From the IMG/VR virus record IMGVR_UViG_3300023198_001275, positions 1-25,332 of that record: DNA of 25,332 bases; one strand, given 5' to 3'. Position 1 is the first letter of the stretch; each line of letters starts with the position of its first letter. The translations under genes were made by a program, and so were the position numbers. The DNA is from a virus. The notes beneath the pieces were generated by a model that was not told where the DNA came from, ran no database searches, and saw only the letters and a list, made by a program, of their open reading frames with translations. Positions 7,439 to 25,332 of this stretch are shown here, piece after piece.

Positions 7439-8023
7439 ATGAAAAATAAAAAAGTAAATATTAACGAAGATGCATTGGTTGAGCTAATCTACAACATAAC
7501 TGAAAGAACTATCAATGAAAGAATTGAAAAGGGAGAACTTAAAAAGGTTATCGCTCCTAAGAAAACTACTAAAGTACAAGTAACCGAAAGTCAATTGGCT
7601 GAATTGGTTAAAACTGGTAGAGTTCTTAACGTTAAAAAAAAAAGCGTGAATGAATCCATGAATAATCTTGATTGGGGTAAGTCTACCGATGAGCGAAATG
7701 CTAATTTAGATAAATACCATTCTTTAGAAACTGATACAGAAAAAAAAGGGTTTGCAAAAAACCTTAAAGGTCAAGAAGATTTGGATGAAGCTATACCTTT
7801 AAAACCAAAGTTAATACCTGAAAATGGAGATGAAGAAATTGAAAGGTCTGTGGCTTTAGAAAAATTGTTCACAGCCCCAGAAGGTTATCAACCAATTAAT
7901 AGTCTAGAAGATTTAATCAGTCAAGCAATAGAGATTTCTAGAAAATATGATTTTGGGTCTGAGGAAATTGGAAGAGCAGCTGCTCATATAGCAAGGCGTT
8001 TCGACCTTAAAAAACATAACTAA
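7439..8023 (+). CDS. Unknown protein with two ITE-type tag motifs
   Basis: A 194-residue protein with no recognised domain. It holds two versions of the shared tag: KVNINEDALVELI near the N-terminus and KVQVTESQLAELV at about residues 45-57, separated by a Lys/Thr-rich stretch. The middle is charged and probably disordered; residues about 140-190 look helical. The late-type promoter and the tags suggest a protein packaged in or built into the head, possibly processed at (I/V)xE sites. A terminator follows. Function is unknown. Confidence 0.6.
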   Translation: MKNKKVNINEDALVELIYNITERTINERIEKGELKKVIAPKKTTKVQVTESQLAELVKTGRVLNVKKKSVNESMNNLDWGKSTDERNANLDKYHSLETDTEKKGFAKNLKGQEDLDEAIPLKPKLIPENGDEEIERSVALEKLFTAPEGYQPINSLEDLISQAIEISRKYDFGSEEIGRAAAHIARRFDLKKHN

Positions 8024-12218: not shown

Positions 12219-12497
12219 CTTTTTAAGTTGTCTGGCTAATTCTTCATGTAATAAATAACCATCATACCCTAAGTCCTCTATTAGCTTATCGACCCTTTCT
12301 TCTTCCCAATATTCCTCAGCTCTATCAACTTGATAGGAGCTTTCGCAATTATCACATCTCCATTCCTCACATTGATTGTGTAGCGTAAATTGAACTACAC
12401 AATCCTCACAAGTTAATTCTTCACATCGTGCACATGGATACTCGGCTAATTCACCACAAATGTGACATGTGTCCACTACTTTACTTTCGGTGTCCAC
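12201..12497 (-). CDS. Small zinc-binding protein, GTG start
   Basis: A 98-residue protein with nine cysteines in pairs: CHIC (11, 14), CARC (22, 25), CEDC (30, 33), C43, and CDNC (48, 51). This looks like one or two treble-clef or B-box/HIT-like zinc sites, suited to protein or nucleic-acid contact. The C-terminal half is acidic and helical and ends in a Lys run. The GTG start overlaps the clpC stop by 1 nt (TAGTG), so translation is coupled; a second in-frame GTG lies 21 nt further on because the junction is duplicated. Co-expression with a Clp unfoldase makes an adaptor role conceivable, without direct evidence. Confidence 0.65.
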   Translation of the reverse strand: MDTESKVVDTCHICGELAEYPCARCEELTCEDCVVQFTLHNQCEEWRCDNCESSYQVDRAEEYWEEERVDKLIEDLGYDGYLLHEELARQLKKKKSPN

Positions 12498-12508
12498 TAC
12501 TTGACTTT
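12469..12508 (-). repeat. 21-bp tandem duplication across the clpC / zinc-protein junction
   Basis: GTGTCCACTACTTTACTTT (12469-12487) and GTGTCCACTACTTGACTTT (12490-12508) differ at one base and are 21 bp apart. Each contains the minus-strand overlap TAGTG of the stop and start. Confidence 0.8.
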
Positions 12509-14965
12509 TGTAGTTATACCCTCTTTAACGCTGTACCCTAACTTGATAGTTCCACCTTCTTTTAGTGCTCCATCGACCACTGCATCTGCGATTGGGTCCT
12601 CAACGTATGTTTGAATGGCTCTATTAAGAGGTCGTGCACCATACTCTTTATGATACCCTTTCTTAGCTATGAAATCTATAGCACCTTTTGTTAATTCTAA
12701 TGTATAACCTAATTCTAATATACGTTCTTTAACTACATCAAGTTCATTCTCAATGATAATTCTAATATGTTTAGGTTGTAAGCTATTAAAAATAATTGTA
12801 TCATCAATTCTATTTAAGAATTCTGGTTTAAATTTATCCTTAAGCGCTTTTTGAATGATGGCTTTTGCTCTTTCTTCTTCATCAATGATAGAATTACCAC
12901 CGAATCCAATACCATTACCAAACTGAGATAGTTGTTTAACCCCAATATTTGAAGTCATGATGATAAGCGTATTTTTAAAGTCCACTTTTCTACCATTACC
13001 ATCAGTTAAATGACCTTCATCTAATAATTGTAACAATAAGTTAAATACATCGTCATGAGCTTTTTCAATTTCATCAAAAAGAATTACTGAATAAGGTTTT
13101 CTTCTTACGTATTCGGTAAGTTTACCACCTTCCCCATATCCAACATATCCTGGAGGCGCTCCAATCAATTTAGACATTGAATGTTTCTCCATAAATTCTG
13201 ACATATCCACTCTGAATAGACTTTCTTTATCTCCAAATACATGTTCAGCCAATACTTTAGATAAGTATGTTTTACCAACCCCAGTTGGCCCTAAGAAGAT
13301 AAACGACCCGATAGGTTTATTTACGTTCTTGATACCTAAACGGCTTCTTTTGATTGCTCTAGCAACCTTTGCAACCGCTTCGTCTTGTCCAATAACTTTA
13401 CCTTGAATATCAACATCTAAGTTCTTAAGTGTATTATTTTCTTTGGTAGACATTTTATTAAGTGGAATCCCAGTCATAGTTGATACAACTTCGTTAACCA
13501 TTTCACTTGTAATTTCAGTAACTGCTTGAGAAGAAGTGTCCCATTTTACTACCATTTTATCTAACTTATTTTTTATCTTAGCCTCTTGTTGTTTGATAGA
13601 TTGTGCATCCTCATATCGTTGTTGAAGAACCATATCACCTTTTTTCTTGTATAGGGTTTCTAACTCTTGTTTCAATTTAGCGATATCATCTGGCATTTTA
13701 ATATCTATGTTAGTTGTTGCCCCAACTTCATCTAAAATATCAATTGATTTATCTGGCATTGCTCTATCCGAGATATATCTATTACTTAATCTAACAATAT
13801 CTTTTATTACTTCATCTGAATATGTAACTTTATGATATTTTTCATAATTTTCCTTGATGTTGGTAAGAATCTCAATAGTTTCCTCAACACTTGGTTCTTC
13901 AATCAATACTGATTGAAATCTTCTGGTTAAAGCACCGTCTTTCTCAATGTGTTCACGATATTCATCTAATGTAGTAGCACCAATTATTTGAATTTCTCCA
14001 CGAGCCAATGCTGGTTTGAATATGTTGGAAGCATCTAGAGCTCCAGAAGCATTTCCAGCCCCAACCAATGTATGTAATTCATCAATGAATAAGATTACAT
14101 CAGTATTTTCTTTTAGTTCTTCAAGAATAGCTTTCATTCTTTCCTCAAACTGTCCTCTATATTTAGTTCCAGCAACGATTGATGCTAAATCCAATGAGTA
14201 TATTTTCTTATTCAATAGTGGTTTAGAAGCCTCACCTTTATTAATTAATGTTGCAAGACCTTCAATTATTGCAGTTTTACCCACACCAGGTTCACCAATA
14301 AGAACTGGGTTGTTTTTCTTTCTTCTTGAAAGGATACCAGTCATTCTCCTTATTTCTTGTTCTCGGCCAACTACTGGGTCAACTTTTCCGTTTTCAGCGG
14401 CTTTTGATATATTTCTACAGAAATTATCGAGGGATGGTGTCTTAGAAACACCGTCTTTATTTATTTTTCTTGTTTTCTTTGGTCTGATTGGTCCATCTTC
14501 TTCCAACCCGTTATCATCATCTAAATTATCTGCCATATTTCCTTGTATTTTAAAAATTATATAATTAATATTAAGTTTTAATAATAATTTTTGTGACTGA
14601 GACTTACCTCTAAGTATTCCTAGCATTAAATGGATTTCATCGATAGTATCCTTTTCAGAGGTTGTACATTCGTGGTCCATTTGGTTAACTACGAAATTAG
14701 TACCTTGAGTTGGCATTAATTCCTTAGTTTTATACTGTGAGTTAGCAACATAATTGTTACTACTTAAAAATAAGTACAATGAATCATAAAGTTGTTCAAC
14801 GTCAACACCTAAATGGCGAAGCGTTTCCACTGCTTTATTATTGTCATCGAGTATTAAAGACAAAAGAATGTGTTCTGGCTTTAGCTTATTATCCCCAAAG
14901 GATATTGCTTGGGCCATGGCACCCTTCATTATACTTTTTACTCTACTTCCAATTACATTGTTCAT
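12497..14965 (-). CDS. clpC: ClpC-type AAA+ unfoldase (Clp ATPase)
   Basis: A full-length 822-residue Hsp100 unfoldase. Residues 1-140 form a Clp N domain. The first AAA+ module has Walker A GEPGVGKT (224-231), pore loop KYRG (268-271), Walker B VILFIDE (290-296) and arginine finger RRF (348-350). A short middle domain with a UVR-like stretch (about 446-468) points to ClpC, not ClpB. The second module has GPTGVGKT (559-566), pore loop GYVGYG (606-611) and VILFDE (627-632). An IGF tripeptide (686-688) at the place of the ClpP-binding loop suggests it can dock to a ClpP protease, yet no clpP lies in the window, so the host ClpP is the likely partner. It has a Bacteroidota-type promoter and leads a two-gene operon with the zinc-binding protein. 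Confidence 0.93.
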   Translation of the reverse strand: MNNVIGSRVKSIMKGAMAQAISFGDNKLKPEHILLSLILDDNNKAVETLRHLGVDVEQLYDSLYLFLSSNNYVANSQYKTKELMPTQGTNFVVNQMDHECTTSEKDTIDEIHLMLGILRGKSQSQKLLLKLNINYIIFKIQGNMADNLDDDNGLEEDGPIRPKKTRKINKDGVSKTPSLDNFCRNISKAAENGKVDPVVGREQEIRRMTGILSRRKKNNPVLIGEPGVGKTAIIEGLATLINKGEASKPLLNKKIYSLDLASIVAGTKYRGQFEERMKAILEELKENTDVILFIDELHTLVGAGNASGALDASNIFKPALARGEIQIIGATTLDEYREHIEKDGALTRRFQSVLIEEPSVEETIEILTNIKENYEKYHKVTYSDEVIKDIVRLSNRYISDRAMPDKSIDILDEVGATTNIDIKMPDDIAKLKQELETLYKKKGDMVLQQRYEDAQSIKQQEAKIKNKLDKMVVKWDTSSQAVTEITSEMVNEVVSTMTGIPLNKMSTKENNTLKNLDVDIQGKVIGQDEAVAKVARAIKRSRLGIKNVNKPIGSFIFLGPTGVGKTYLSKVLAEHVFGDKESLFRVDMSEFMEKHSMSKLIGAPPGYVGYGEGGKLTEYVRRKPYSVILFDEIEKAHDDVFNLLLQLLDEGHLTDGNGRKVDFKNTLIIMTSNIGVKQLSQFGNGIGFGGNSIIDEEERAKAIIQKALKDKFKPEFLNRIDDTIIFNSLQPKHIRIIIENELDVVKERILELGYTLELTKGAIDFIAKKGYHKEYGARPLNRAIQTYVEDPIADAVVDGALKEGGTIKLGYSVKEGITTKVK

Positions 14966-16266: not shown

Positions 16267-16491
16267 ATGAATAAAGTTATACACTTATCAACTAGTGCTG
16301 ATACTTCAACGTACATGTACACACAAGTATATGCTGGAGTTGGGGGCACCATAGTACTTAACGGTACTTCTGTAACAATGGCCACTCAATCTACAATAGA
16401 TATTCAAGTATTGGAGATAACTGGGGCAGCTGGTATTTACGTAATAGGATTTAAAAAAGTGGGTCATCCACCAACACAAATAAACGGATAA
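16267..16491 (+). CDS. Small beta-rich probable virion protein
   Basis: A 74-residue protein rich in Thr, Val, Gly and Ile with alternating hydrophobic strands (TQVYAGVGGTIVLNGTSVTMATQSTIDIQV). It looks like a small beta-sandwich or decoration-type protein. No family is assigned with certainty. The late-type promoter and position between tail tube and structural genes suggest a virion component; the next gene starts 17 nt later, likely on the same transcript. Confidence 0.5.
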   Translation: MNKVIHLSTSADTSTYMYTQVYAGVGGTIVLNGTSVTMATQSTIDIQVLEITGAAGIYVIGFKKVGHPPTQING

Positions 16492-16508: not shown

Positions 16509-17327
16509 ATGAAAAATAATATTATTAGACCTACAGGGTTAAAAGGTAACGAAAAAGTAAACAGAATGAGAAGTTTAATGGGAATGTCTCCTATTAATGA
16601 AAGTGCTGAAAACACTCGTTCAGTTGTTGAGTTAAAGAAACTTGGACCTGACGGTAAAGTTTATGGTATTGTTAGGGAAAACCACGAATACTATATTAAA
16701 ACCGCAGTTAAAAAACCAAATTTAATTGCCGAAGATTTTAAATATATCGGTGGATTAAAAAATAAAAAAGAAGTTGTATATGAAAGCTATGCTAAAGCTA
16801 TCAAACAACTTAACCTTAAATTCATTAGTCTTAACGAAGCATTGGGTAATGTAGGTGAGGTTAATACTTTTTTAAATGAATCTTTTGAATCATACAATGA
16901 AAAGCCAAAACCAAGTCAACCAGATACCTTAATGGGTACTGTTAAATCTCCAGGAAAAAATGATGGTCATGAAAGTGAAATCATCAATGATTCTGGTGAA
17001 ACTGGAAACCCTGATGTTAAAACTCCACCAGTTGTGGAAGAAGATGACGTTGTTGAAGGTGAAGAAGCTATCGAAGAAGATGTTAATGCATTCGGAGAAG
17101 GTGGTGACGATGAGGACCATTTAAAAGGTGAAGAAAAAGATGATGATATTGAATTAACTGAAGGTGAAAAAGCTATCGATAGAATGATTCTTGAAAACAA
17201 AACTCCAGCGATAGCAAAAAAAGTTGAAGGCAAAGTTGAAGAAGTTGTTGTTGAAAGAAGAATGAGTATTGCAACTGCATTACAAAAAATCGATGAAGGA
17301 GTAAACTCTCAAAAAAAAAAGAAGTAA
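16509..17327 (+). CDS. Virion structural-type protein, zero-frame product upstream of an A10 slippery site
   Basis: A 272-residue protein with a folded N-terminal region (about 25-110: VVELKKLGPDGKVYGIVRENHEYYIKT..., NLIAEDFKYIGG) and a long acidic, low-complexity region (about 150-215). It contains several (I/L)xE sites (PINE, LNE), as do T4-type head proteins cleaved by the prohead protease. The frame stops at 17325 right after a run of ten A. Sequence that continues the reading is open in the -1 frame, so a longer fusion (about 645 residues) is possible. I recall related phage structural proteins from memory as continuous across this point, but could not check. Confidence 0.65.
   Translation: MKNNIIRPTGLKGNEKVNRMRSLMGMSPINESAENTRSVVELKKLGPDGKVYGIVRENHEYYIKTAVKKPNLIAEDFKYIGGLKNKKEVVYESYAKAIKQLNLKFISLNEALGNVGEVNTFLNESFESYNEKPKPSQPDTLMGTVKSPGKNDGHESEIINDSGETGNPDVKTPPVVEEDDVVEGEEAIEEDVNAFGEGGDDEDHLKGEEKDDDIELTEGEKAIDRMILENKTPAIAKKVEGKVEEVVVERRMSIATALQKIDEGVNSQKKKK
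17311..17327 (+). other. Candidate -1 ribosomal frameshift site (A AAA AAG)
   Basis: In the zero frame the run reads CAA AAA AAA AAG AAG TAA, which contains the heptamer A AAA AAG (17315-17321), the E. coli dnaX slippery site. An AAGGAG lies 13 nt before it (17296-17301). A -1 slip joins the 16509 frame to the 17387 frame. A homopolymer sequencing error or transcriptional slippage would give the same picture. Confidence 0.55.
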
Positions 17328-17386
17328 CTGAAACAAAGTTTAAATTAAAATTAGATAACCCATCTCCTGAGCAACCATCTCAAGAT

Positions 17387-18445
17387 ATGGGTTCTCCTGT
17401 TCCTAGTGAGAACCCATTGGCAGCTCCAGAAGGTTTTGGTGATGTTCCAGAAATGGGTGACGCTCCAGAGGTAAATGATAAACCATTTGATGATGAACCA
17501 TTCGATGCTGGTGTTGAAGCCAACGAAGAAGAAAATCCAGAAAAATACATACAACAATTAGCGGGTAAATTAGGGCAAAGCCTTAGAAAATATACTGATG
17601 ATATGGGCCAAGCTGATTATGATTTAGAAAAGTTTGCAATCAACAGTGTGTTATCTGCAACCAATTCAGGTCAAATGGACCAACAAGACCAAAACGATAT
17701 TATAAGTAAGGTTAAGAGTGCATCTACTGATGGCTCTGGTGGTGATGGTGAAGAAGCTGGTGAAGGTGGAATGGGTGCTCCAAGTGAAGAGCCTATGGGT
17801 GATGAAGGTGGAGAAGAAGCTGATGGTGGTAGTGAAGAATTAGATTTTAGTAATATTGATATGGAAGAGGGTCATAATCCAAATCCTAATGGAAAAACAG
17901 TATTTCAAGATATGACTTTAGGTGTTAAAGATGGTGGAATGGAAGAAAATAAGTATTTAAATTTGGAAAGTACGGAAAAAAGTAGTATATTTGTAAGTGA
18001 AACAGAAACTATTAAAAATATGATACGACAAACACTAACAGAATCTCCTGTTATTACTCCAAAAACAAAACCAACAACTACTCCAACTAGAACTCCTAGT
18101 AGAAGAAGTAAACCTTGGACTATTATTCCAGAAAGCGTACCAGACCCAGAGCCAAAAGGAGAGGTAACGCCAATCACTTATATTAATAGTGATAAATTTA
18201 CAAATGATGATGTAGTAATCACATTTGATGTTGGGGATGTAAGATTTGTTGAAACATTTACAAATACTGATGAAGTGTTAGAAAAGCCAATGGCTTATAA
18301 TGAACCTTGGATTTATGACTTTAGAACTGAACCATTATCAAATAATAAAATATACGGTGTATCGGTTGCATTTTATGGTAACCCAACCACTGATTTAGTG
18401 CTTGATGGATTTGTAGATAATCCACCTCAAATTGAAGAGATATAA
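17387..18445 (+). CDS. Acidic virion structural-type protein, likely -1 frame continuation of the 16509 gene
   Basis: The frame is open from about 17312, 75 nt before the first ATG (17387), and continues the sense of the upstream gene (KKKEVTETKFKLKLDNP...). From the ATG it encodes 352 residues: a helical segment NPEKYIQQLAGKLGQSLRKY and EKFAINSVLSATNSGQMD (about 45-110), a Gly/Glu-rich low-complexity part, a Thr/Pro/Arg-rich linker (TPKTKPTTTPTRTPSRRS) and a C-terminal beta-rich domain of about 110 residues. No promoter or ribosome site precedes the ATG. It is probably made mainly as a fusion with the upstream protein. Its stop overlaps the next start (TAATG). Confidence 0.65.
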   Translation: MGSPVPSENPLAAPEGFGDVPEMGDAPEVNDKPFDDEPFDAGVEANEEENPEKYIQQLAGKLGQSLRKYTDDMGQADYDLEKFAINSVLSATNSGQMDQQDQNDIISKVKSASTDGSGGDGEEAGEGGMGAPSEEPMGDEGGEEADGGSEELDFSNIDMEEGHNPNPNGKTVFQDMTLGVKDGGMEENKYLNLESTEKSSIFVSETETIKNMIRQTLTESPVITPKTKPTTTPTRTPSRRSKPWTIIPESVPDPEPKGEVTPITYINSDKFTNDDVVITFDVGDVRFVETFTNTDEVLEKPMAYNEPWIYDFRTEPLSNNKIYGVSVAFYGNPTTDLVLDGFVDNPPQIEEI

Positions 18446-18852
18446 TGGATGATTTGAAACTGATATATGTTCATCAACTTGGACCTGATTGTTATGATAA
18501 TTATATTTACCAATTTATATTTTCTGATACTATAGAGAATATTGATGGTGAGGGATGGGATTCATATCCAGCTGGAGGTAACCCATATCCACCTAACAAG
18601 GATGTTATTAAACAAGTAGGTAGAATTGAAGGTGATTTGAAATTAATAGTGCTACAAGATAATGAACAATTTTCAATGTGGGATGCAATTGACGGTGTTG
18701 TATCATTAGCTTGGGAAAATATCGATGGATTAGATGATTACCCAGAAAACCGTTTAACCTTTTCATTCGGAATGAAATTACAAGATGTTAAAGACTTGTT
18801 ATATGAAAGGGATATTAACTTAGAATATGAAAAAAAATTAACCAATGGCTAA
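18445..18852 (+). CDS. Conserved-looking phage protein of unknown function
   Basis: A 135-residue protein. Its pattern (LIYVHQLGPDCYDNYIYQFIFSDTIENIDGEGWDSYPAGG, read in parts, then MWDAIDGVVSLAWENID) is one I associate with conserved hypothetical proteins of T4-like phages; the role is unknown. The fold looks alpha/beta with many aromatic and acidic residues. Start and stop overlaps with both neighbours (TAATG before it, 8 bp after it) place it in the late structural operon. Confidence 0.65.
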   Translation: MDDLKLIYVHQLGPDCYDNYIYQFIFSDTIENIDGEGWDSYPAGGNPYPPNKDVIKQVGRIEGDLKLIVLQDNEQFSMWDAIDGVVSLAWENIDGLDDYPENRLTFSFGMKLQDVKDLLYERDINLEYEKKLTNG

Positions 18853-19342
18853 AAAAATAAAAGAAGGGGATATCACAACCGATATCGATACGTACAAAAA
18901 AAATAAGTATGACATAGATTCTCAAATGGATGATGAACAAGATACGTTAAACTTAACATCAAGTAATACCAATGAAGGTTCAATTGATGAAGTGCTTAAA
19001 TTACCTATGAGTGATGTAATAAGTAGTTTAGGAATTAATTTACACGGAAAGACACCAGAGCAACGACAAAGTATTTTAACTTTCATTAGACAAATGATGG
19101 GTGATTTACAATCCAAATTTGGTGTTGGCCCTTTATTGGGTGAAAGTGATGATAAAGAAGATTTCCAAGACCCAGATTTATTTGGTGATGAAGAAAGAGC
19201 TGAACGTGAAATGGATGAAAGTTTTGATGATTTAATGGAGTCATTAAATAAAAAAGGTGGTCCAATCGTTGATGTTACCAAAAGTGTTAATCCTAGAATC
19301 AAAAAAAGTGACCTAATAGAATATTATAAAAATAAAAAATAA
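18845..19342 (+). CDS. Acidic helical phage protein of unknown function
   Basis: A 165-residue, strongly acidic protein with an ISSLGINLHGKTPEQRQSIL helix pair around residues 59-80 and an acidic region (EDFQDPDLFGDEERAEREMDE). It ends in a basic tail with a helix (KKSDLIEYYKNKK). It could be a head-assembly or scaffold-type factor by position and composition, which is inference. It overlaps both neighbouring genes (8 bp and 1 bp). Confidence 0.6.
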   Translation: MAKKIKEGDITTDIDTYKKNKYDIDSQMDDEQDTLNLTSSNTNEGSIDEVLKLPMSDVISSLGINLHGKTPEQRQSILTFIRQMMGDLQSKFGVGPLLGESDDKEDFQDPDLFGDEERAEREMDESFDDLMESLNKKGGPIVDVTKSVNPRIKKSDLIEYYKNKK

Positions 19343-20571
19343 TGGAAAATAAATTTAAGAGTATGGCAATGAGAGCTTTAGATAATAAAGTTAGTAAAAA
19401 GCTGAACATCAGTGAAAGTCGAATGACTTATGAAGATGACCACTCTGAAAGGTTAAATCCAGTATTGGCTAAACAACTAAGAGATAGGAAAACTTCTTTG
19501 GGTGCACATCCTATTTTCCCAGAAAGTGATGATATGCATTTTGAAGAAAAACTAATGTCAAAAAGGTTTACTGACGTATTAAAGAATTTCAAAAGACATC
19601 ACAATACCGAAGTTGCAGATTTAGGTACGTTTTACCAAGAGCAAGCTCAATTGATAATGAGTATTATCAATATGGAGAAATCCAACAAGGTTGAATTGGA
19701 ACAAATGGCGATTAATTTAATCAGAGAGGAATTCGATATGACCGAAGCTGATGTAGAGATAGTAGCTAATTTAACTTCTGATTTTAAAGACTTTAACGAG
19801 TCTGATTCAAGACAAGAACCAGAGAGAGATGTTGATGTTACATTTGATAATCACGCTGAATTAGAACAAGCTAATAAAGAAGTTTATAAACGTAGATTTG
19901 TAAACGCTTTGATTCAAGGTTCTGCAAAGAAAGTGAATCATATGTTTCATGTGGTTGATGAAGAGTTACAGAATATGGAACCTTTATTACCTAATAGTTA
20001 CGCCAAATTAATGACTGGTGCTGACTACGCTTATATGCTTGAAGCTAATGGAGGTAAACGAATGATGGGTGGTAGAGTTCAAGTAGAATTCCCAACTGTA
20101 GAGGGTAATAGACCTAAGATTACGGCTATGGCCATAACGTTCCCAGTATTGATTCATGAGATTATGAAAGGTGTTATGGAAATTCTTTCAAGACATGGTT
20201 TACCAGAAAACACTGATGTTGCAAAATATGCGTTGGCTAAGGCTGATTATATGAATGCTGAGATTTGGGATATGAGACTAGGACCACCAATTTGGGAGAA
20301 GTTCGTAGAATCATTACCGCCAGAAGATTTTCCGTTGAAACATCACGCATACATTGAATTGGTTGCGTTACCAGTTGATGAGTTCAATGATACCATGAGA
20401 GAGATTTTATTAGGTAGTAGAGAAGGTAAAGCTAAAATGCAAATGATTATAGATGACGTAAAAGATGATTTAAGAAATGATGATTTTGACAATGCAATGG
20501 AACACATTAGTGATGATGATTATTTAGGTCCAGAGGATTTAGATAACATTGACGATGAAGAATGGTTCTAA
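19342..20571 (+). CDS. Conserved-looking structural-operon protein of unknown function
   Basis: A 409-residue protein not assigned to a family. N-terminal KKLNISESRM is a variant of the shared ITE tag. Residues about 60-150 are helical; about 190-370 look like one folded alpha/beta domain with conserved-looking pieces (RVQVEFPTVEGNRPKITAMAI, KYALAKADYMNAEIWDMRLGPPIWEKF); the end is very acidic (DDDYLGPEDLDNIDDEEWF). It begins with overlap of the preceding stop and is followed by a terminator, so it closes the operon that starts near 16267. A head or neck structural role is likely from position only. Confidence 0.65.
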   Translation: MENKFKSMAMRALDNKVSKKLNISESRMTYEDDHSERLNPVLAKQLRDRKTSLGAHPIFPESDDMHFEEKLMSKRFTDVLKNFKRHHNTEVADLGTFYQEQAQLIMSIINMEKSNKVELEQMAINLIREEFDMTEADVEIVANLTSDFKDFNESDSRQEPERDVDVTFDNHAELEQANKEVYKRRFVNALIQGSAKKVNHMFHVVDEELQNMEPLLPNSYAKLMTGADYAYMLEANGGKRMMGGRVQVEFPTVEGNRPKITAMAITFPVLIHEIMKGVMEILSRHGLPENTDVAKYALAKADYMNAEIWDMRLGPPIWEKFVESLPPEDFPLKHHAYIELVALPVDEFNDTMREILLGSREGKAKMQMIIDDVKDDLRNDDFDNAMEHISDDDYLGPEDLDNIDDEEWF

Positions 20572-20672: not shown

Positions 20673-22490
20673 ATGTTAACATCGAATGAAATATTAGAGG
20701 AATATGCTAAATGTTTAATGGACCCAACATATCCAATTACGAATTATCTTAAAACATTTGATATGACGCAAGAGGGTTTTGTACCTTTTAAATTATTCCC
20801 AAAACAAATTGAAATTATAGGTGACTATGAAGAGTTTAGATATAATTTAGTGACCAAACCAAGACAAGCTGGTATTTCAACTATTACACAAGCGTATATG
20901 GCAACCAAGATTGCCTTTGCAGACCCAAACAAACCCGAAACCATTCTGGTGTGTGCGAATAAATTAAAATTAGCCCAAAAATTCCTTAGAGGGATTAAAG
21001 ATTATTTGATTCAATATCCAAGATGGGTGTGGGGTGATGAATACTACGGTACTAAAGAAAATGAAGATAAGGATATCTTCTTGCAAAAAAATCAAACTGA
21101 ATTAGAATTAGTAAATGGTTGTAAGGTTATTGCAGTAGCAACATCAACCGATGCATTAAGGGGTTTTACACCTTCTTACTTAATATTTGATGAGGCAGCC
21201 TTTATTGATAAAGGTGCTGAATTATATGCCGCTGCGATTACATCGTTAGGTACTGGGGGAAAATGTACACTTATTTCAACTCCAAACGGTTTAGATGAAT
21301 TATATCATAGAACTTACGAACAATCAATTAGTGGTAATAATAGCTATAATGTTATTGAAATGAAATGGTATCAAGACCCACGTTATAATGGTTATAATAA
21401 TGGTGGTGGAGATTTAGTTTGGTATCATGAAGAAGATGAAAGTAAACGTATCGTTGAGGTAGAATTCACGTTTGATTCGTATAAGAAAAAAGTGAAAGAC
21501 GGTTATATACCAACGTCAACTTGGTATCGTGATACTTGTGAAAGTATGAATAACGATAAGAGAAGAATTGCACAGGAATTAGATGTATCATTCTTAGGCT
21601 CTGGGGGTAACGTAATCGATGACAAATATTCGACCTACCACGAGAAACATTTCGTTGAGGCTCCTAAATGGACCAATGGTGAAGAAGATGAAATATGGAT
21701 TTGGGAGGAACCTATTGAAGGTCACCAATATATATTATCTGCCGATGTCGCTAGAGGGGATGGTGAGGATTCATCCACTATTGTTTTAATAGATTTTACA
21801 ACAATGACTCAAGTAATGGAATATAAAGGAAAAGTTCAATCTGATTTACTAGGTTATATTGTCGATGAATATGCACGAATATATGATGCGTTGGTAGTTG
21901 TGGATATTACTGGTGGAATTGGTGTTGGAACTATTAATAAGTTAATGGAATTAGGAACACCTAATTTATATTACGGTGACGCTAGTAACAGACCATTAGA
22001 TAAATTAACAAGTAGGATTGTAAACTTTACAGATGAAGGTAAATATCCTGGATTTAACTGTGCCTCTGGTGTTAGAACTCCAGTTATTTCACATTTAGAA
22101 ATGATGATTAGAACCAACGGGTTTAAAGTTCGTTCTAAAAGGCTTGTTTCAGAAATGAGAACCTTTGTATTTAAAAATGGTCGTCCTGACCATATGGATG
22201 GTTATCATGATGATTTATTAATGGCATTAGGTTATGGATTATGGGTTGCCGAAAATTCATTTAAAAAATTAACAGCCTCAAAGGCAAAAACAAAGGCAAT
22301 ATTAGCTGGTTGGACAATCGCTGGTAATGATGGTAGTGATAATTTAGAAAAAGAATATGGTGAGAACTTTGTCTCAAAACAAAACCGAGGTAAAAAAGCA
22401 ACGAAAAAACCTAACTTTAGCCCAACAGTAGCTAGAACAATGCAAGACCCTACTGGAAAATATATGTGGCTATTTAGTGGTTCAAGATAA
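20673..22490 (+). CDS. Terminase large subunit (T4 gp17-like)
   Basis: A 605-residue protein, close to T4 gp17 (610). The N-terminal ATPase has a Walker A-like KPRQAGIST (62-70), a Walker B YLIFDEAAF (169-177) with the catalytic Glu, and a coupling motif STPNG (202-206). The C-terminal RNase H-like nuclease shows SADVARGDGEDSS with D358, VVVDITGG (D411) and DGYHDDLLMALG with D513/D514. It docks on the portal, pumps DNA into the prohead by ATP hydrolysis and cuts concatemers at headful. The portal gene follows 63 nt downstream. No intein or frameshift is present in it. Confidence 0.95.
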   Translation: MLTSNEILEEYAKCLMDPTYPITNYLKTFDMTQEGFVPFKLFPKQIEIIGDYEEFRYNLVTKPRQAGISTITQAYMATKIAFADPNKPETILVCANKLKLAQKFLRGIKDYLIQYPRWVWGDEYYGTKENEDKDIFLQKNQTELELVNGCKVIAVATSTDALRGFTPSYLIFDEAAFIDKGAELYAAAITSLGTGGKCTLISTPNGLDELYHRTYEQSISGNNSYNVIEMKWYQDPRYNGYNNGGGDLVWYHEEDESKRIVEVEFTFDSYKKKVKDGYIPTSTWYRDTCESMNNDKRRIAQELDVSFLGSGGNVIDDKYSTYHEKHFVEAPKWTNGEEDEIWIWEEPIEGHQYILSADVARGDGEDSSTIVLIDFTTMTQVMEYKGKVQSDLLGYIVDEYARIYDALVVVDITGGIGVGTINKLMELGTPNLYYGDASNRPLDKLTSRIVNFTDEGKYPGFNCASGVRTPVISHLEMMIRTNGFKVRSKRLVSEMRTFVFKNGRPDHMDGYHDDLLMALGYGLWVAENSFKKLTASKAKTKAILAGWTIAGNDGSDNLEKEYGENFVSKQNRGKKATKKPNFSPTVARTMQDPTGKYMWLFSGSR

Positions 22491-22553: not shown

Positions 22554-25332
22554 ATGGCAAAAAAACAACAAAGAACTGTATGGCAAAAAATTGACGGTAT
22601 TTTCGGTAAAGATGGTTTAAACCCTAATGCTAAGAAAAATAATCGTTATGCTATCGGTAATCAAGAAATATTAAGGACACAATCCAAAGAGGAGTTTGAT
22701 ACGGCAAAATTACAAGCTCAACAAACCAAGTATCTTGCTGGTATGTGGAATAAGGTTGATGGAGAATTATATCAACAAGCTATTCATTATGAAACAACAA
22801 GGGTTGGTTCCTACTCAGATTTTGAGACAATGGAATTTTATCCAGAAATTTCAGCAGCATTAGATGTAATGATGGAAGAATCCACAACACCTAATGATAA
22901 AGGAGATGTTATCAATGTTTATTCTGGAAGTAAGCGTGTAAAAAGTATACTTGAAGATTTATTCGTTAATCGATTGGATATACATACGTCATTACCAATG
23001 TGGACAAGAAATACTTGTAAATATGGCGATAACTTCGTTCACTTAAATGTGGATGATAGCGCTGGTATTATCGGTGCAAGACAATTACCTAATTTTGAAA
23101 TAGAACGTAGAGAGAATGATATTCATGGAATTATTTCACCATCTCAATTGGAAGGTGTTAATGCTGATGAAAGTAGAAATAAAACAAAATTCTTCTGGAA
23201 AGGAAAAGATGTTACATTCAACTCTTGGCAAATCGCTCACTTTAGATTACTAGGTGATGATAGAAAATTACCTTATGGTACTTGTTTAAAAGGTGATACT
23301 AGAATTAATACAATTGATGGTGTTAAGGAAATTTCTGAAATTAAAAAAGGTGATATCGTCACAAGTTTTAACATTAAAACGCAATCTAAAGAATTATCAC
23401 CAGTTTTAGATACGATAAATTCTGGTAGTAAAGAATGTTTTAGAGTTAGTACACGACATAATTTTATTGACTCATCTAAAGAGCATAAAGTGTTAATTTT
23501 AGAAAATGATGAATTTATTTATAAAAATGTTTTAGATTTAAAATTAGGTGATTTATTAGTAATTAATAAAAATGAAAAAACAAAAGAATTAATCTCAATT
23601 GATAAAACTGAACCTGAAAATAATAAAAATGGGTGGTTTAATAATATAAATTTAATTCCAAATGAGGTGGATGAAGATTTTGCCCAATTATTTGGGTTCT
23701 TAATTGGAGATGGATGGGTAAATCATACGGTAAATACAGTCTCGTTTGCTTTAGGTACTGATGAAGAAACTAACGAGTATTATATAGAATTATTAAGAAG
23801 ATTTAGTGGTGGTAATCCTAGAGTAGTAAATGATGGGAAGCAAGTAGTTTTATCGTCTAAATTATTATCAACGATTTTAAAGAGAATGGGATTTGGGGGT
23901 AAATCTTATGAAAAAAGATTACCACAATGGATTTATAATACTACACCTGATATACAAAAATCACTATTAGCTGGTTTAATGGATGCTGATGGATGGTGGA
24001 CTAAAGATGAGTGGGTTGTTGGTTGTCACATTGAGTTAAATAATGAGCAATTAATTAAAGATTTAAAAATCTTATTACAAAGGATTGGTTATAAATCGGG
24101 TTCAATTAGAAGTAGAATAAGAAAAACTCCTACTATCGAAGGACGTGAAATTAAAAATGTAAGGGAAAGTTTTATGATAACATTTTTTGATTCTTATTTA
24201 ACTCAAATGAAGAAATGTGAAAATAAGAATAGATTGTTAGAAAATTATATATTAGAACCAATTAATAAGATTGAAAGTATTGGTGAACATGAGACATTTG
24301 ACATTTATGTTGAAAATGAGAATCATAATTTTTACGCCAATAACATTGTAGTTCATAATAGCTTCTTAGAGAAGGCTAGACGTATTTGGAAACAACTTAT
24401 ACTATCTGAGGATGCGATGTTAGTCTATCGTGTAACTAGAGCGCCAGAAAGGCGTGTATATAAGATAAATGTTGGTAATATTGATGACCAAGATGTAGAA
24501 GCATATGTAAATGAGATTGCAAATAGGTTTAAACGTTCACCATTGGTTGACCCACAAACAGGTCAAATGGATTTACGTTACAACCAATTAGGTTTAGACC
24601 AAGATATATTCGTACCAGTTAGAACTGACGATGCCCCTAATCCTATTGATACACTTCCAGGTGCTCAAAATTTAGACCAGATTGCAGATATTGAATATTT
24701 ACAACGTAAATTATTTACTGCATTAAGAGTTCCTAAACCTTTCTTAGGTTTTGAAGAGCCAACGGGTGAGGGTAAGAATTTAGCTTTACAGGATATTAGA
24801 TTCTCAAGGACAATCAATAGAATTCAACAAGCAATGCTTCACGAATTAAATAAAATTGCGATTGTGCATTTATACTTATTAGGGTTTGTTGATGATTTAG
24901 ATAATTTTACACTAACACTTAATAATCCATCAACTCAAGCTGAAATGCTTAAGGTTGAACATATGCGTGAAAAAGTTGGATTATATAAAGATGCTGTTGC
25001 CGATGCTGGTAATGGGTTTGGTGCAATGTCAATGACTAGGGCTAAAAGAGAAATCTTAGGTTGGAGTGATGATGAAACCAAACAAGATTTACTTGAACAA
25101 CGTATTGAAAAAGCGGCAGCTTCTGAACTTGAAAACACTGCTCAAGTTATTAAACATACTGGATTCTACGATAGAGTTGATAGAATTTATGGAGATATGG
25201 AAATGGCTAAAGAAGGTGGTCAAGTAGCCGAAGAAGGTGAAGATGGCGGTGGTGCTTCTGGTGGAGGTGCTGGTGGCGGAGGCTTCGGTGGAGGTTTTGA
25301 CGCTCCTGATTTAGATTTAGAAGATGATGGTG
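22554..25332 (+). CDS. Portal vertex protein (T4 gp20-like) with an in-frame intein, 3' end beyond window
   Basis: The frame is open from ATG 22554 to the end of the window with no stop. The N-extein (243 residues) reads SYSDFETMEFYPEISAALDVMMEE..., NTCKYGDNFVHL and ends IAHFRLLGDDRKLPYGT; the C-extein resumes SFLEKARRIWKQLILSEDAMLVYRVTRAPERRVY and continues with GLDQDIFVPV, ALRVPKPFLGFEE and a helical stem. These are strong T4 gp20-type portal signatures, and joining the exteins restores the conserved PYG-x-S-x-L-E-x-A-R-R stretch. The 12-fold portal ring starts head assembly and conducts DNA. The visible C-terminus is Gly-rich then acidic (DLDLEDDG). The gene is partial. Confidence 0.93.
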   Translation, partial: MAKKQQRTVWQKIDGIFGKDGLNPNAKKNNRYAIGNQEILRTQSKEEFDTAKLQAQQTKYLAGMWNKVDGELYQQAIHYETTRVGSYSDFETMEFYPEISAALDVMMEESTTPNDKGDVINVYSGSKRVKSILEDLFVNRLDIHTSLPMWTRNTCKYGDNFVHLNVDDSAGIIGARQLPNFEIERRENDIHGIISPSQLEGVNADESRNKTKFFWKGKDVTFNSWQIAHFRLLGDDRKLPYGTCLKGDTRINTIDGVKEISEIKKGDIVTSFNIKTQSKELSPVLDTINSGSKECFRVSTRHNFIDSSKEHKVLILENDEFIYKNVLDLKLGDLLVINKNEKTKELISIDKTEPENNKNGWFNNINLIPNEVDEDFAQLFGFLIGDGWVNHTVNTVSFALGTDEETNEYYIELLRRFSGGNPRVVNDGKQVVLSSKLLSTILKRMGFGGKSYEKRLPQWIYNTTPDIQKSLLAGLMDADGWWTKDEWVVGCHIELNNEQLIKDLKILLQRIGYKSGSIRSRIRKTPTIEGREIKNVRESFMITFFDSYLTQMKKCENKNRLLENYILEPINKIESIGEHETFDIYVENENHNFYANNIVVHNSFLEKARRIWKQLILSEDAMLVYRVTRAPERRVYKINVGNIDDQDVEAYVNEIANRFKRSPLVDPQTGQMDLRYNQLGLDQDIFVPVRTDDAPNPIDTLPGAQNLDQIADIEYLQRKLFTALRVPKPFLGFEEPTGEGKNLALQDIRFSRTINRIQQAMLHELNKIAIVHLYLLGFVDDLDNFTLTLNNPSTQAEMLKVEHMREKVGLYKDAVADAGNGFGAMSMTRAKREILGWSDDETKQDLLEQRIEKAAASELENTAQVIKHTGFYDRVDRIYGDMEMAKEGGQVAEEGEDGGGASGGGAGGGGFGGGFDAPDLDLEDDG
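23283..24359 (+). mobile_element. Complete intein with LAGLIDADG homing endonuclease in the portal gene
   Basis: A 359-residue in-frame insertion. Splicing blocks: Cys1 and CLKGDTRINTIDG at the start, a B-like block SSKEH (H68), F block ETFDIYVENENHNFYANNIV, then VVHN with penultimate His358 and terminal Asn359, followed by Ser as +1 residue. The endonuclease is a two-motif LAGLIDADG type: LFGFLIGDG (136-144, D143) and LAGLMDADG (229-237, D236). All residues required for splicing and cutting are present, so it is probably active in both. It sits at a conserved extein site (PYGT / SFLEKARR), as mobile inteins usually do. Confidence 0.95.

Follow-up and report, generated by a model that had tools for sequence, protein, structure and literature searches.

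The window (the whole stretch of viral DNA analysed, 25,332 nucleotides) carries two overlapping open frames that meet at a run of ten A, upstream of the gene for the large subunit of terminase (Table 1). The 0-frame closes with the codons CAA AAA AAA AAG AAG TAA; the open -1 frame spans 17297-18445, and the first ATG in it (17387) lies 60 nt past the stop of the short frame. One A added at the run joins the two into a fusion of 645 residues. Both predicted products are acidic, with a pI of 4.9 and a mass of 30 kDa for the short one and a pI of 4.4 and a mass of 71 kDa for the long one. On these points a preliminary description of the same DNA was accurate: it had noted the 272-residue frame and its TAA, the ten A, the -1 frame open across the run without a start codon, a fusion of about 645 residues, the A AAA AAG heptamer with an AAGGAG 13 nt upstream of it, and a 7-bp stem (17357-17363 with 17387-17393), which turns out to be the base of a larger hairpin. 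It had, however, placed the stop directly after the run, from which it is separated by G AAG. The third frame ends within 8 codons in all of the 125 split loci described below, as against 91% of synonymous variants; always present, this stop is only weak evidence as a signature of slippage. Since three A10 runs are found in this AT-rich window, against 2.3 expected, an A10 by itself is unremarkable, and it is the conservation among relatives that matters. Another of these runs lies at 7634-7643, inside an ORF (7439-8023) whose product would be truncated by a slip there; conservation of that run was looked for in relatives and was not found.

Table 1. Features of the split gene and of its conserved neighbourhood in the window
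Feature	Position	Strand	Remarks
74-aa gene, conserved upstream neighbour	16267..16491	+	96/133 loci
0-frame ORF, short product of 272 aa	16509..17327	+	conserved N-terminal domain, about residues 1-113; acidic tail
AAGGAG, SD-like	17296..17301	+	family enrichment absent; probably without function
A10 run, proposed RNA polymerase slippage site	17311..17320	+	at least nine A in 125/125 split loci
A AAA AAG heptamer in 0-frame register	17315..17321	+	window's own clade and a few others; 5/109 loci
-1-frame extension, 374 aa	17321..18445	+	contains the KFKLKL motif and a conserved core (residues 53-132); C-terminal beta domain predicted
0-frame stop TAA of the short form	17325..17327	+	
TGA closing the third frame	17329..17331	+	reached with 9 or 12 A
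ETKFKLKL codons (ETKYKLKL in the family)	17330..17353	+	conserved; upstream of the frame's first ATG, 17387
RNA hairpin directly 3' of the KYKLKL codons	17354..17396	+	-14.8 kcal/mol, z -2.8; shape conserved, sequence not
135-aa gene, conserved downstream neighbour	18445..18852	+	123/133 loci
409-aa gene, conserved downstream neighbour	19342..20571	+	87/133 loci
Terminase large subunit	20673..22490	+	

IMG/VR was scanned with each half of the gene and with alignments of the halves, which gave a few hundred loci; by profile HMMs for the conserved N and C cores, 134 distinct viral loci carry both, and because these are mutually related, counts made over them are not independent. Relative to the N core, the C core is in frame -1 at 125 of the 134 loci, and at every one of these 125 the stretch where both frames are open contains at least nine A (A10 at 109, A11 at 8, A9 at 7 and A12 at 1, the run lengths being those given in the metagenome assemblies). 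Single-frame homologues account for 8 loci, namely L080, L165 and L327 (A10), L196-198 (A11), L114 (A8) and L150 (no run), and a single locus, L002, has the opposite frame relation (A9). In a deep protein tree built on both cores (190 columns, 19.8 changes per column) the frame state changes five times. Adding one A gave an uninterrupted fusion at all 73 loci first tested, and the fusion reads on into the conserved ETKYKLKL motif. An alignment of related phages had been proposed in the preliminary description as a check, and the A-run split is kept; the two independent genes that it had considered as the contrary case are not what the relatives show, and its claim of one gene with two products, joined by a -1 shift at the run, is supported by the 125 loci. 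Because the same -1 split recurs throughout the relatives, an error or a pseudogene peculiar to the window is ruled out. As established by this comparison, the frame split is genuine and old, one gene being kept in two frames, at a run of about ten A, by a large group of uncultured T4-like phages.

Three loci deserve separate mention. The A9 run of L002, a close relative of the window, lies at 2975-2983, and slippage could still join the frames there, or the assembly may be in error. In L081 a long insertion separates the run from the KYKLKL motif and puts the C half about 430 nt past the run, with both run and motif kept. The divergent L114 (QCKH01000009.1) comes from a Prochlorococcus single-cell genome, in which its 64-kb contig may be that of a co-sorted phage.

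Judged across the relatives, the conserved property is the length of the run and not its register. The register of dnaX, A AAA AAG, occurs at 5 of the 109 loci tallied; the usual contexts are TTA AAA AAA AAA Gxx, GTA AAA AAA AAA and AGT AAA AAA AAA CTC, and CAA AAA AAA AAG is that of the window's clade. Moreover, the codon preceding AAA AAA AAA ends in A at 90 of 104 loci, when 48 +/- 4.6 would be expected from codon usage, and a run of ten or eleven A is kept even in several of the single-frame homologues listed above. The background was taken from 677 other ORFs of the fetched loci, compared on the sense strand with synonymous shuffles. Runs of five to eight A occur there at expectation (for A8, 143 versus 144), A9 is found 18 times versus 58 expected, and runs of at least ten A are found 5 times versus about 44. 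The heptamer A_AAA_AAA is also under-used (304 versus 425 expected), partly because the runs of at least nine A are lost. Nine was the threshold found most often in bacterial genomes for selection against slippage, and Baranov et al. (2005, PMC1088944) regarded the keeping of an A9 run among homologues as a mark of purposeful slippage. The avoidance of runs of at least nine A could also reflect replication slippage or ribosome sliding.

We consider it probable, from these sequence comparisons, that one gene gives rise to two overlapping products by programmed transcriptional slippage at the A10 run. RNA polymerase would copy the run, most transcripts retaining ten A, and these would direct synthesis of the 272-residue short form, which stops just past the run; some transcripts would gain one A (or lose two), and on these the ribosome would continue into the -1 DNA frame and produce the 645-residue long form. 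The N-terminal domain and the acidic tail would be common to both forms; the long form alone would add the KYKLKL motif, a second conserved core and a C-terminal module that varies. RNA polymerase would thus be the enzyme that slips, both products would be made, and their ratio would matter for the building of the virion. The family shows what is expected of programmed transcriptional slippage, that is, at least nine A at the transition, a run conserved beyond the needs of the protein, and avoidance of such runs elsewhere. Single-base insertion predominates when A/T runs are transcribed (PMC5574713), and this preference of the polymerase predicts the -1 DNA arrangement. Since the single-frame homologues keep ten or eleven A, a slip there would yield the short form; with one extra A, L080 would indeed make a short form ending in EKKKL, which resembles the ordinary one. 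Among the A-runs of tssM, versions that slip to the long form and versions that slip to the short form likewise both occur, one homologue following this reverse logic (PMC4256274).

A second conserved element lies beyond the run. The RNA just past the KYKLKL codons folds far better than synonymous variants encoding the same protein, with a mean z of about -3.5 to -3.8 at offsets of 0-6 and values near zero from 18 nt onward. For the best window the mean z over the 125 split loci is -4.6, and 90% lie below -2; in windows 150 nt downstream the figures are -1.2 and 20%. From clade to clade the arms of the hairpin have different sequences. In one group, an alignment of 13, pairing in the outer stem reaches 99%, with 3 of 9 pairs changed on both sides, and this is abolished by sliding the partners. 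An Rfam search returned nothing above threshold. Measured to the start of the hairpin, the distance from the run is 9-613 nt (median 42), that from the motif has a median of 8 nt, and fewer than 1% of loci have the hairpin about 4-10 nt from the run. As it tracks the motif and not the run, its position is not that expected of a ribosomal stimulator. The hairpin is absent from the single-frame L080, L196-198, L150 and L114, and present in L165 and L327; its absence from several single-frame homologues suggests that it is of service to the split arrangement, and it may, though the single-frame lineages are few, shield the untranslated RNA past the short stop from Rho or from decay. Bypassing in T4 gene 60 involves a KYKL motif and a hairpin. 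A bypass of that type at the present hairpin was considered and rejected, because at every locus the reading frame continues through the hairpin.

The preliminary description had favoured a ribosomal mechanism like that of dnaX and had listed slippage by RNA polymerase as an alternative; among the relatives it is the alternative that finds the better support, and the dnaX-like mechanism is not supported. Of the competing explanations the most serious, if an unlikely one, is nonetheless that the ribosome makes a programmed -1 shift where the run ends, on A AAA AAG or A AAA AAA, and is helped by the hairpin. Every split locus offers an A-rich heptamer that could serve for a shift in the required direction, both heptamers are slippery for ribosomes, the conserved downstream hairpin is missing from several single-frame homologues, and the under-use of A_AAA_AAA in other genes would also fit. 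The -1 direction is, in addition, nearly uniform, which by a published rule would be called ribosomal, but the authors of that rule themselves assign two-ORF dnaX genes with an A10 run to transcription (PMC3711429). Against ribosomal frameshifting, seven A suffice for a ribosome, without the additional A favoured before the Lys codons, yet no split locus has fewer than nine, and runs of seven or eight A are not avoided in other ORFs. The optimal AAG register is scarce, L002 would require the opposite shift, and the hairpin, at its variable distance, follows the KYKLKL codons, whereas dnaX-type shifting goes with a stem-loop or pseudoknot about 5-9 nt downstream. Nor is there a Shine-Dalgarno (SD) stimulator, since SD-like sequences upstream of the run are not enriched (16.5% versus 13.8% in shuffled sequences) and SD sequences are not used at the gene starts of these phages (3.8% versus 5.9%). 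These gene starts are A-rich and SD-less, as in Bacteroidota, which would suggest hosts in that group. With SD hardly enriched and gene starts that do without it, the AAGGAG of the window is unlikely to act.

Sliding of the ribosome over consecutive AAA codons, as distinct from a single-step -1 shift, is an improbable source of the long form. Three consecutive Lys codons are always present within the run of at least nine A, and E. coli ribosomes do slide on poly(A), but sliding is slight at A9-A10 and robust at A11 (PMC4363877), and here A10 is the modal length, with A11 in only 8 of 125 loci. Two independent genes, sequencing error and phase variation are, on the comparative evidence, all very unlikely. 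If the C half had a start of its own, or if ribosomes re-initiated past the short stop, ATG 17387 could serve in the window, yet this codon sits inside the hairpin, many loci have their first ATG after the conserved ETKYKLKL, and 14 of 109 loci have no ATG, GTG or TTG between the run and the C core, which leaves their C half without an independent start to account for it; L114, L150, L080 and L196-198, moreover, have the N and C halves as one fused protein, and we attach hardly any weight to this explanation. Least credible of all is a sequencing error (which the preliminary description had also raised), a gene in decay or phase variation through slippage of DNA, for although A10 is mutable and error-prone, and L002 and perhaps L165 and L327 could be such variants, many independent assemblies show one and the same frame relation (125 of 134 loci, these 125 with at least nine A), both halves are conserved, and the near uniformity of the frame relation is unlike the mixed frames expected from phase variation.

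Transcriptional slippage, the reading that we prefer, has parallels in several known systems. In tssM1 of Citrobacter rodentium and tssM3 of Yersinia pseudotuberculosis an A-run also lies shortly before a stop, the long form needs an added A, and the outcome is two forms of a protein that belongs to a tail-like machine; for these genes both proteins and transcripts carrying 10-15 A have been demonstrated, at about 20-25%, whereas the phage gene is known from its sequence, and no RNA structure was reported near the tssM site, in contrast to the hairpin of the phage family (PMC4256274). The A9 run of Thermus thermophilus dnaX, a case of transcriptional slippage, is like the A9-A10 run considered here, and in the two-ORF dnaX genes with A10 (GeneTack) the longer product needs a -1 transition exactly as in the phages (PMC3711429), although dnaX is another gene and a cellular one. 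A/T runs of about nine also lead to alternative products in Shigella spa13 and mxiE and in slippage genes of IS elements (PMC5009743, PMC1088944), the proteins being unrelated to that of the phages. E. coli dnaX shares with the window's own clade the A AAA AAG heptamer and an SD-like sequence upstream of it. It differs from the phage family in that these phages do without SD, their stem is too far from the run and at a variable distance, the register is not conserved, the run always has at least nine A, and the shifted product is the long one. Tail assembly chaperones G/GT of lambda and HK97 are also made as short and long forms by a -1 shift, from a gene in a morphogenesis module; however, there is no sequence match, the phage protein described here is larger, acidic and encoded upstream of the terminase, and the slip signal is another. 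The split gene does not fit as a G/GT chaperone gene, which would resemble known chaperones and lie between tail tube and tape measure genes: its N half has no PHROG or Pfam match, it is located upstream of the terminase, and a homologue of the window's tube-like gene occurs upstream in only 6 of 133 loci.

The split gene has a conserved setting, in which the 74-aa gene, the split gene, the 135-aa gene, the 409-aa gene and the large terminase follow one another, with the portal gene next in the window. From this conserved position upstream of terminase and portal, the product most likely belongs to the virion or to its assembly, in a distant lineage of T4-like phages. Its designation as a structural gene in the preliminary description is accordingly plausible by position, but no domain or fold match was found to go with it. 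Searches of Pfam, PHROGs and PDB sequences, together with fold searches, revealed no function; the N half had no PHROG or Pfam match, and the C half ends, in other clades, in modules that match PHROGs of function unknown. The AlphaFold models are weak (pLDDT 63 and 60), with a confident beta domain only at the C terminus of the window's protein, and the fold search, made with these mostly low-confidence models, gave no match. Among cultured phages (INPHARED), nucleotide and protein searches at the sensitivity used found no relative, and profiles compared with the nearest isolates and with huge-phage records found no match, so that there is no annotation or host to borrow. The portal gene (22554-25331) appears, by eye from its translation, to contain an intein, running from CLKGDTRINTIDG... 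to ...NNIVVHNS with a LAGLIDADG-like stretch, and the complementary strand at 12497-14965 appears, also by eye, to encode an 822-aa AAA+ chaperone resembling ClpA/ClpB.

When a tailed phage has a programmed frameshift, the ribosome is usually held responsible. The class of event proposed here is already known, and transcriptional slippage in phages has been suggested from single genomes for a methyltransferase of a Campylobacter phage (PMC2853527) and for an Acinetobacter prophage (PMC6095929). In the open-access literature searched, phage transcriptional slippage appears only as such single-genome suggestions, and slippage conserved in a phage lineage together with a separate hairpin was not found; slippage kept across 125 loci would make a strong comparative case. 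We see about as much reason to accept as to doubt a wider proposition, namely that a large uncultured T4-like lineage uses programmed slippage of RNA polymerase, and not ribosomal frameshifting, to set how much of each of two forms of a virion-assembly protein is made, that the slip site is paired with a separate hairpin which stands at varying distance and is required only where slippage is the route to the long form, and that this two-part module has not been described before. The avoidance of runs of at least nine A may report, genome-wide, the onset of slippage by the polymerase of the hosts. The A-run and the distant hairpin form a testable pairing and, if the proposal is true, gene callers split a conserved gene across a whole phage lineage.
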